A stretch of DNA of 64,000 bases. It comes from an uncultured Marinococcus sp. Lineage in GTDB: Bacteria; Bacillota; Bacilli; Bacillales; Marinococcaceae. The stretch is taken from contig NZ_CANLSU010000006.1 of NCBI RefSeq assembly GCF_947493875.1, positions 1 to 64,000 of the forward strand. Direction: 5' to 3'. The notes beneath the pieces were generated by a model. That model saw nothing but the letters and a program-made list of their open reading frames with translations, did not search any database and was not told the origin of the DNA. A program made the translations under genes and the position numbers. The stretch's first letter is position 1. Each line of letters opens with the position of its first letter. This document shows positions 33,517 to 35,760 of the stretch, piece after piece.

Positions 33517-33553
33517 AAAAACACTTTCTCCCAATAAAAGAGAAAGTGTTTTA
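33517..33553. terminator. Bidirectional terminator between LysR and ABC-F genes
   Basis: AAACACTTTCTC (33519-33530) and GAGAAAGTGTTT (33540-33551) form a perfect stem with A and T runs on both sides. Confidence 0.75.
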
Positions 33554-33579
33554 AAAACCCGGCATTGTTATTAAAGCAA

Positions 33580-35163
33580 TTAGTTTTCCTCTATCTGATT
33601 TATTAGCGCTTTTTTCCTGGCTAATAAACTCTGAAATTCTTCATCCAGCTCCGGAGCCGGCTTAATGCTGAGCCGGCTTAAAACTTCTGCAATGCTCGTT
33701 TCCACCTGCAGCAGCTCGTCTTCCAAATGCTCATGTTTTTGAGGCCCGGGAGTTTCTTCATGGGCTGATAAAGGGCCTTCAAACGGAATTAACTGCTGCT
33801 CTTTCAATATAAATAATTTTGTAGCGGCGTTTGCCAGCAGCCGACGGTCGTGAGTAATGAAAAGAACCGTTCCCGAATAATCAATTAATAAGGCCTCGAG
33901 GGCTTTCACGGCTGTAATATCCAGGAAGTTTGTCGGTTCATCGAGCACTAACACATTCGCACTGCTTACAAACAATTTAGCAAGAGCTGCTTTTACTCTC
34001 TCCCCACCGCTTAATACGTGCACTGGCTTAAACACCTCTTCACCAATAAAACCAAGACGGGCGAGCACAGTCCGCATAATTGTTTCATTCTGTACTGAGG
34101 AAGCCTTCATGTTTTCCATGACTGAATCCTTCGTGTTTAACACTTCGAGCATTTGACTAAAATAACCGAATGTTACTGCCGGAGAAACCGTAATGCCATC
34201 CTTCTGATTCAGAATTTTAAGAAGAAAAGTTGTTTTACCGCTGCCATTGGCCCCGGTGATACCTATTTTATCACCACTGGTTATAGAAAAATTCACCTTG
34301 CTCCAAAGTATTCGTTCTCCCATCTTCCCCTCTACTTGCTGACCGCGAATGATCACACGGTTCCGAAGCTTTTCTTCCTTAGCCACCTGCATTTTTACCG
34401 GTGCAACTGCCTTTGGCTTTTCTACTTTATTCAAATGCTTCAATCGCGACTGCATCGCAAGGGCCCCCTGATTCAGCTTTTTCTGCTTCTTGGCAAAATG
34501 CGGCTTGGCCCCGGTAATTCTGGCTTCAGAGCTGGACAAATTTTTCGGCTTTTTGGTTGCCTTCTGTGCTTTTTGTTCTTTAAGCTGTACAGCTTCTTCC
34601 AGCTGGGCTTTTTCCTGCACGTATTTTTCGTATTCTTTTGCATGGCGTTCTTCTGCCTCTTTTTTCTGCTGCTCATAATCAGAATAATTCCCGTTATATA
34701 CCCACACTTTTCCTTCATCTATTTCCCATATTTTTGTGCAGAGCGTATCCAAAAATGCCCGGTCGTGAGAGGTGATAATCATCGCTTCCGAACGCTTTTG
34801 CAGCTCCTGTTCGATTTTTTCTGTTATTTCAGTATCCAGATAGGTGGTGGGCTCATCCATTAAAAGCAGATCCTGCGCTTCAGCGAAGATTTTATCAATC
34901 AACATTTTTGATACTTCTCCCCCGCTTTTATGCTGTGATTGCGGTTTTAACTGTGGGAGAAGCGCCGGTTTCCCGTGAAGGACCGCGCTGCCATGAAACT
35001 GCTGCTCTTCTTTGGCAATGATTCTTAATAGAGAAGTTTTTCCCGAACCGTTTGCCCCGACAAGTCCGATACGGTCTTTGTGTTGAATGTCCAAATGTTT
35101 AATGGTAAACAGGGTCCGGTCTTTAACTTCGAAACAAATATCATTTAATTGTACTAACGCCAT
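33580..35163 (-). CDS. Vga-like ABC-F ribosomal protection protein
   Basis: 527 aa. Two ABC domains: Walker A GANGSGKT (36-43) and GANGSGKT (304-311); signatures SGGE (80-83) and SGGER (385-389); Walker B/DEP motifs LLLMDEPTTYLD and LVLDEPTNFLD. No membrane helices. The 100-residue arm between domains has QKAQKATKKPKNLSSSEARI, and the first signature is degenerate in the manner of Vga(A) (HKSGGEV). Known: Vga proteins bind the ribosomal E site and dislodge lincosamides, streptogramin A and pleuromutilins. Near-complete alignability to Vga(A) is from memory, not a search. Regulated by the 5' leader. Confidence 0.85.
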   Translation of the reverse strand: MALVQLNDICFEVKDRTLFTIKHLDIQHKDRIGLVGANGSGKTSLLRIIAKEEQQFHGSAVLHGKPALLPQLKPQSQHKSGGEVSKMLIDKIFAEAQDLLLMDEPTTYLDTEITEKIEQELQKRSEAMIITSHDRAFLDTLCTKIWEIDEGKVWVYNGNYSDYEQQKKEAEERHAKEYEKYVQEKAQLEEAVQLKEQKAQKATKKPKNLSSSEARITGAKPHFAKKQKKLNQGALAMQSRLKHLNKVEKPKAVAPVKMQVAKEEKLRNRVIIRGQQVEGKMGERILWSKVNFSITSGDKIGITGANGSGKTTFLLKILNQKDGITVSPAVTFGYFSQMLEVLNTKDSVMENMKASSVQNETIMRTVLARLGFIGEEVFKPVHVLSGGERVKAALAKLFVSSANVLVLDEPTNFLDITAVKALEALLIDYSGTVLFITHDRRLLANAATKLFILKEQQLIPFEGPLSAHEETPGPQKHEHLEDELLQVETSIAEVLSRLSIKPAPELDEEFQSLLARKKALINQIEEN

Positions 35164-35170
35164 GCTATCA

Positions 35171-35322
35171 TCTCCGCGTAATTATATTGGCGGAGGCTGG
35201 CTGCAGCGATTGCTCTTTCTATACAAACAGCCTCCTATGAACGATAGACGTCCCGAATAGGAGGCAGATGTATCCCGCAGGTGAAAAGAAACCAGGGAGC
35301 TTCACATACTAATCCTATTCGG
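35171..35322 (-). promoter_or_regulatory. Attenuator-like leader of the ABC-F gene
   Basis: Five segments in the message can pair in mutually exclusive ways. A (35313-35322) with B (35253-35262): 10 bp. B (35257-35265) with C (35230-35238): 9 bp. C (35228-35235) with D (35192-35199): 8 bp. D (35190-35195) with the Shine-Dalgarno (35172-35177, GCGGAG): 6 bp. A lies inside a 12-codon leader ORF. This looks like ribosome-stalling control, but the polarity (ON or OFF upon stalling) is not evident. Confidence 0.55.
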
Positions 35323-35340
35323 AACACTACCGAAACGCAT
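35302..35340 (-). CDS. Possible 12-aa leader peptide (MRFGSVPNRISM)
   Basis: Short frame upstream of the ABC-F gene, ending TGA at 35302. Its codons VPNR are where segment A of the hairpin system lies, which is what a regulatory leader needs. Ribosome site is weak (CAGGG, 9 bases upstream). Confidence 0.4.
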   Translation of the reverse strand: MRFGSVPNRISM

Positions 35341-35538
35341 GACAAAAAACCCTGAAACACGGGAGCTTTGTCTTACATTCTTCGTTCGTGTCCGCTTCAA
35401 AATAGAATTAGTACTTCATGTCCCTACCATTCACCCTCTTTATGTTAAATTCTTCATCATCATACCATACATACATGCATTAAAAAGCCTGAAAATATAT
35501 TTTGGTTTCCTTAAATTTCCTTAATGAACAATTCTTTT

Positions 35539-35760
35539 TTAATTTCCTGCATCCTCTTCTTCCCGGTACTCCAAAATATCTCCAGGCTGGCACTCCAGAG
35601 CCCTGCATATTGCTTCGAGAGTGGAAAAACGTATAGCTTTTGCCTTGCCATTTTTCAGTATCGAAAGATTCGCCATGGTAATACCCACCTTTTCCGAAAG
35701 CTCGGTTACACTCATTTTTCTTTTTGCAAGCATTACGTCAATGTTGACGATCACTGCCAT
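35539..35760 (-). CDS. XRE-type HTH regulator (YozG-like)
   Basis: 73 aa from ATG at 35760 with GAGGTG 7 bases upstream. MLAKRKMSVTELSEKVGITM, NLSILKNGKAKAIRFSTLEA are the HTH_26/Cro-like helices, and ALECQPGDILEY the end. Short single-domain regulators of this kind pair with DUF2975 membrane proteins in bacilli. Downstream of that gene, in its operon. Confidence 0.85.
   Translation of the reverse strand: MAVIVNIDVMLAKRKMSVTELSEKVGITMANLSILKNGKAKAIRFSTLEAICRALECQPGDILEYREEEDAGN

Follow-up and report, generated by a model that had tools for sequence, protein, structure and literature searches.

Attenuators of the erm type depend on a leader peptide of sufficient length for the nascent chain to be arrested in the exit tunnel, and in ermC the arrest is peptide-specific, takes place in a longer leader peptide, and belongs to a scheme without a terminator-like hairpin. 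Attenuation by the vga(A) leader in staphylococci was reportedly described by Vimberg in 2020. According to PMC9226507, the vmlR leader of Bacillus subtilis carries a tripeptide uORF, MIN, within an anti-antiterminator, and stalling there allows an antiterminator to form, by which termination is prevented and a hairpin sequestering the Shine-Dalgarno sequence (SD) is relieved. Pausing, termination, and induction of vmlR have been studied by experiment, and the decision was proposed to fall during transcription (PMC9226507). As well, PMC10201436 describes the clostridial cplR leader, in which a uORF encoding MR[I/M] is combined with transcriptional and translational attenuation together, and gives MK[L/Q] as the uORF consensus of VmlR2 leaders.

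The window, i.e., the whole 64,000-nucleotide stretch of DNA from an uncultured Marinococcus sp. analysed here, contains an ABC-F gene whose leader is very probably a ribosome-mediated attenuator of the vmlR/vga(A) kind. Computed support for this reading comes from the elements of the leader and their conservation, in part from covariation, and from fold models that show the switch. No new mechanism is needed; attenuators of this kind have been published for vmlR, vga(A), and cplR, here with the uORF MKY. The likeness to vmlR-type ribosome-mediated attenuation, already noticed in the original prediction, is borne out by a switch scheme that is the same as in the published vmlR model (PMC9226507). 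Both leaders combine a tripeptide uORF in an anti-antiterminator, an antiterminator, a terminator hairpin (in the window leader a terminator-like one), an SD-sequestering hairpin, and a competing SD-freeing structure, although the uORF is MIN in vmlR and MKY in the window, and vmlR is known by experiment, the window leader from sequence and fold models. The cplR leader resembles the window leader in its three-codon uORF and in the two levels of attenuation proposed, but its terminator stem itself sequesters the SD, whereas the window would use a separate hairpin of segments 5 and 6 (PMC10201436); the uORF consensus of VmlR2 leaders does not fit MKY. With the ermC leader, the window leader would share a stalled ribosome that rearranges helices and exposes the SD. 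A long leader peptide of the erm type was not found in the window leader, where the conserved uORF has three codons and a 12-codon ORF is unconserved and of the wrong polarity in fold models.

Two staphylococcal plasmid leaders (L126 and L127, one of them that of vga(A)-LC) follow the same leader plan, with a three-codon uORF ahead of both vga genes, and share with the window the SD, the three-codon uORF, TAATCCTATT, segment 2, and the CTCCTATTC hairpin. Their uORFs encode MRN (L126) or MIN (L127) instead of MKY, and, compared with them, the window leader has more sequence ahead of the SD and its U-tail is weaker. Among the papers listed in literature searches, none names this leader in the relatives of the window in its title or abstract opening, and the leader may still have been published.

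Table 1. Features of the ABC-F gene and its proposed leader in the window, in the order of transcription.
Feature	Sequence	Coordinates	Strand	Role or remark	Basis
Extended -10 promoter element (putative)	TGGTATGAT	35459..35467	-		read by eye
Shine-Dalgarno-like element of the uORF	AGAGGGTGA	35431..35439	-		sequence; such elements are common in relatives
Three-codon uORF (MKY)	ATG AAG TAC TAA	35408..35419	-	proposed sensor	conservation and fold models
Segment 1	CTAATTCTATTTTG	35398..35411	-	overlaps the uORF stop; partner is segment 2	
12-codon ORF	MRFGSVPNRISM	35302..35340	-	contains segment 2; probably not the sensor	no conservation
Segment 2	TCCGAATAGGATTAG	35309..35323	-	partner is segment 1 (off) or 3 (on)	
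Segment 3	GCCTCCTATTCGGGA	35251..35265	-	5' arm of terminator-like hairpin	
Segment 4	ATAGGAGGCTG	35228..35238	-	3' arm of terminator-like hairpin; alternative partner is segment 5	
Weak U-rich tail	TGTTTGTAT	35221..35229	-	3' of the hairpin	longest U run 3
Segment 5	CAGCCTCCGC	35190..35199	-	anti-Shine-Dalgarno	
Segment 6	GCGGAG	35172..35177	-	Shine-Dalgarno of the ABC-F gene	
ABC-F ribosomal protection gene, Vga-like		33580..35163	-	527 aa	ATG at 35163

The leader RNA probably starts near the extended -10 element, at about 35452. A consensus scan of the window for promoters and terminators listed neither the leader promoter nor the 3:4 hairpin (helices are named by the segments they join), the latter probably being passed over because its 9-bp stem encloses 18 bases while the scan takes loops of 3-8. 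At the gathering threshold, Rfam gave a single match in the window, a tRNA, and no Rfam family for the leader.

On the minus strand, the interval 35340-35171 contains exactly four Watson-Crick helices of 6 bp or longer, each sharing an arm with the next, namely an exact helix of 10 bp (35322-35313 with 35262-35253), one of 9 bp (35265-35257 with 35238-35230), one of 8 bp (35235-35228 with 35199-35192), and one of 6 bp (35195-35190 with 35177-35172, where the second arm is the Shine-Dalgarno region). In 1000 dinucleotide-preserving shuffles, no chain of four overlapping helices arose, not even at 6 bp per helix, and a single helix of at least 9 bp was present in 35. The four alternating helices on which the original prediction was built are therefore real, and they are mutually exclusive through their overlapping arms, with the last one covering the ribosome site. 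Folding of the leader at 35440-35164 is also much more favourable than that of shuffled sequence (z -4.66), with none of 200 shuffles matching it. The extent first proposed, 35171-35340, was about 80 bases too short, leaving the uORF and the first regulatory segment (35419-35398) outside. Simple reading of the four pairings had given an unclear polarity, which was taken as a hint of a new mechanism; the polarity becomes clear because segment 1, at the MKY stop, pairs with segment 2 in a fifth helix. The apparent new mechanism was thus a product of the interval, and some 80 bases more upstream restore the known polarity.

In a constrained fold of the free RNA, helices 1:2, 3:4, and 5:6 reach 0.985, 0.985, and 0.998, respectively, and the SD is unpaired at 0.001. 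Blocking the bases around the uORF AUG as a model of stalling brings 2:3 to 0.995 and 4:5 to 0.952, lowers 5:6 to 0.042, and leaves the SD unpaired at 0.73. As modelled, the off state would hide the SD and the on state would release it, and helices 1:2 and 2:3 would be mutually exclusive and swap when the uORF is occupied. When the region from the uORF to the SD was shuffled, the switch (SD closed <0.1, open >0.5) was seen in 0 of 200 sequences, a gain of at least 0.5 in SD opening in 2 of 200, and a closed SD in 44 of 200. We also slid a 28-base block along the leader and read out the opening of the SD. Blocks starting at 35434-35410, which cover segment 1, open the SD (0.73-0.77), and the block at 35440-35413, which spares segment 1, leaves it closed (0.02). 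Elsewhere, the SD is also opened by the block at 35446-35419 (0.52), near segment 3 by blocks with start positions of 35290-35266 (0.44-0.77), and over segment 5 by blocks with start positions of 35218-35206 (0.67).

In the proposed mechanism, MKY would be translated and cleared in the absence of drug, and three helices would form, 1:2 as the anti-antiterminator, 3:4 as the terminator-like hairpin, and 5:6 burying the SD, leaving the gene off. A drug that halts ribosomes at or just after initiation, expected to be a lincosamide, a pleuromutilin, or a streptogramin A, would park a ribosome on MKY and hide segment 1. The parked ribosome would be expected on ATGAAGTAC, and with lincomycin or retapamulin on ATGAAGTACTAA. 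Segment 2 would then take 3 and segment 4 would take 5, whereby transcription would read through and the SD would be free. Translation of the uORF, stalling of ribosomes on it by drugs, and induction of the gene are inferred. Because the U-tail of the window leader is weak, termination is uncertain there, and this tail together with the strong equilibrium switch suggests a large contribution of translational control, which may dominate in this leader.

For comparison, we used 80 leaders, comprising that of the window, that of Tenuibacillus multivorans (L009), and 78 from the same family and order found via the protein. L009 was the one useful relative among six loci of a genome-contig scan; the other five (L010-L014, at most 26% identity) were left out, and 16 more distant loci (L027-L042, 37-40% identity) were left out of the leader comparison. 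A total of 74 of the 80 leaders could be anchored at the uORF and segments 2, 3, and 4. The others were L009, L045, and L058 (two-codon uORFs), L100 (no motif), and L022 and L067, which have the uORF and in which another anchor was lost, the gene start being set 72 bases too early in L022 and segment 2 being different in L067. L080 was kept in the set although its segment 4 is evidently mis-anchored.

A three-codon uORF whose stop carries TAATCCTATT, allowing one substitution, was found in 76 of the 80 leaders and in none of the leaders of each of 20 shuffled sets of 80, and a GGRTGA or GGGTG element lies 5' of the uORF in 71 of 74. In the window's own genome, the exact pattern ATGNNNNNNTAATYCTATT has a single match, at the MKY uORF, which lies near the leader's 5' end and, given the SD-like element ahead of it, is a candidate for a short translated uORF. 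Among the 74 leaders, the uORF encodes MKY in 33, MWN in 11, MKN in 10, MKF in 8, MKL in 5, and MIN in 2, and MIF, MYN, MDC, MSN, and MIL occur once each. With these peptides in one conserved frame, the 80-leader set is a test bed for variation of codons 2 and 3; follow-up on how the uORF consensus relates to the spectrum of resistance and inducibility is asked for in PMC10201436.

Pairing across distinct rows was kept in 380 of 418 cells for helix 1:2, 329 of 352 for 2:3, and 375 of 400 for 3:4, and fell to 26-53%, 39-57%, and 48-62%, respectively, when one side was slid by 1-3 bases. At the fourth pair of 2:3, both sides were changed in 9 of 32 distinct rows, the window itself having C-G instead of A-T, and in 3:4 both sides were changed in 7 of 40 distinct rows at each of two pairs. 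Double changes are few in the nearly invariant helix 1:2, where two pairs each show them in 2 of 38 distinct rows. In 69 rows, base 3 of segment 4, base 4 of segment 5, and base 3 of segment 6 vary together (five of the 74 leaders, for which no anchor was found, were excluded from the 4:5 and 5:6 counts), and Fisher tests, which ignore relatedness, gave 4.6e-8 and 7.0e-10 for the linked bases of 4:5 and 5:6, respectively. When partners were dealt anew among distinct rows, pairing was at least as high in 351 of 500 rounds for 4:5 and 124 of 500 for 5:6. The evidence from relatives is weaker for 4:5 and 5:6 than for 2:3 and 3:4, where pairing is kept and double changes occur. Compared with the common motif, segment 1 of the window has CTAATTC, which leaves a G-U pair, and its segments 2 and 3 carry CCG/CGG in place of CAG/CTG, a paired change.

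The reading frame of the ABC-F gene is uninterrupted for 527 codons. Its protein scored 461.3 bits against NF000355 (ribosomal protection-like ABC-F, NCBIfam), above the curated cut-off of 380, and 647.2 bits against NF000170 (Vga family, NCBIfam), below the curated cut-off of 725, and is therefore called Vga-like only. The closest solved structure is 7NHL, a lincosamide-streptogramin A resistance protein (520 bits), which we take to be VgaA-LC, and other solved relatives are Lmo0919 (327 bits), a macrolide protein (280), and a chain named ExpZ (254). In a second genome of the species, the match to the flanks ends at about 33546 and resumes at 35539, and some 200 unrelated bases separate the two parts; this places the gene, the leader, and the probable promoter within one strain-variable stretch. 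This arrangement is consistent with the gain of the whole unit, or with its loss elsewhere. The stretch from 33546 to 35539 forms a compact unit that this second genome lacks, and no repeat pair was listed at its ends.

The original prediction drew attention to the 12-codon ORF, which would act as the sensor if a ribosome stalled on it blocked segment 2, in an erm-like or a new way. This ORF is present as described, and segment 2 does lie inside it, but blocking segment 2, as a ribosome on the 12-codon ORF would, leaves 3:4 and 5:6 in place and the SD unpaired at 0.001 (about 0.73 when MKY is blocked), a predicted polarity that is wrong for a resistance gene. ATG ORFs over segment 2 or starting within it occur in 46 of the 74 anchored leaders, ranging from 6 to 65 codons with a median of 32, and none of the 73 leaders other than that of the window has an ORF of the 12-codon length or with that start position. 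Since it also lies downstream of a conserved three-codon uORF that is preceded by an SD-like element, we consider a sensing role for the 12-codon ORF very improbable. A decayed leader without function appears just as hard to believe. Neither the other genome of the species nor three further genomes of the genus contained a match to the gene at E 1e-140 or better, and the gene might have arrived recently and be weakly selected; against decay, the G-U pair of segment 1 and the changes in segments 2 and 3 preserve pairing, and the gene is open over its whole length.

A switch that acts in translation only is possible, though somewhat unlikely; the elements would be as proposed, with 3:4 no longer terminating after its U-tail decayed to TGTTTGTAT. 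The longest U run in the window is 3, versus at least 5 in 67 of 74 leaders, its U-tail score is 2.54 (14th lowest of 74, median 3.84), and its gain in SD opening on stalling, 0.72 at full-length equilibrium, is the third highest of 72. However, at -19.8 kcal/mol the 3:4 hairpin that precedes this short U run is strong (the median is -18.3), some leaders have weaker tails, and terminators can generally work with imperfect tails. More doubtful still is the idea that the window leader and a few relatives, once transcription attenuators, have become thermodynamic translation switches, with the tail decayed and 4:5 and 5:6 strengthened; if true, one uORF would drive a reversible five-helix relay on the full-length mRNA.

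In the relatives, full-length equilibrium folding with the stall opens the SD by at least 0.2 in 14 of 72 leaders (two of 74 were skipped), none closing as much, and 3:4 falls by at least 0.5 in 23 of 72. Because few leaders switch at full-length equilibrium, which does not model co-transcriptional switching, the switch would have to be co-transcriptional in most relatives. Full-length folding having proved weak as a test for relatives, prefixes that end ahead of segment 4 were folded afterwards; here 1:2 forms in the free RNA and 2:3 with the uORF covered in 69 of 74 leaders, and five fail to do so.

Several minor observations were also made. An ATG at 35430 opens an ORF encoding MVGT, whose stop overlaps the MKY start (ATGA), and a GTG at 35434 is in frame with MKY; the MVGT ORF or the in-frame GTG could alter initiation on MKY. 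In L020 and L021, an in-frame ATG is found at a similar place (MNCRSMKY and MNCRLMKY). At 35281-35305, between segments 2 and 3, there is a possible small hairpin (GTGAA/TTCAC) carrying TTTCTTTT, which fits the TTNTTT pause motif of vmlR given in PMC9226507 and may match by chance. In the search rows, L020, L056, and L096, relatives of the ABC-F gene, have internal stop codons, and their leaders still carry the uORF motif. Finally, L009 (1303-1311), L045, and L058 have a two-codon uORF, ATG AAG TAA or ATG ATT TAA, encoding MK or MI, which is followed by a different helix set that is likewise alternating in L009.
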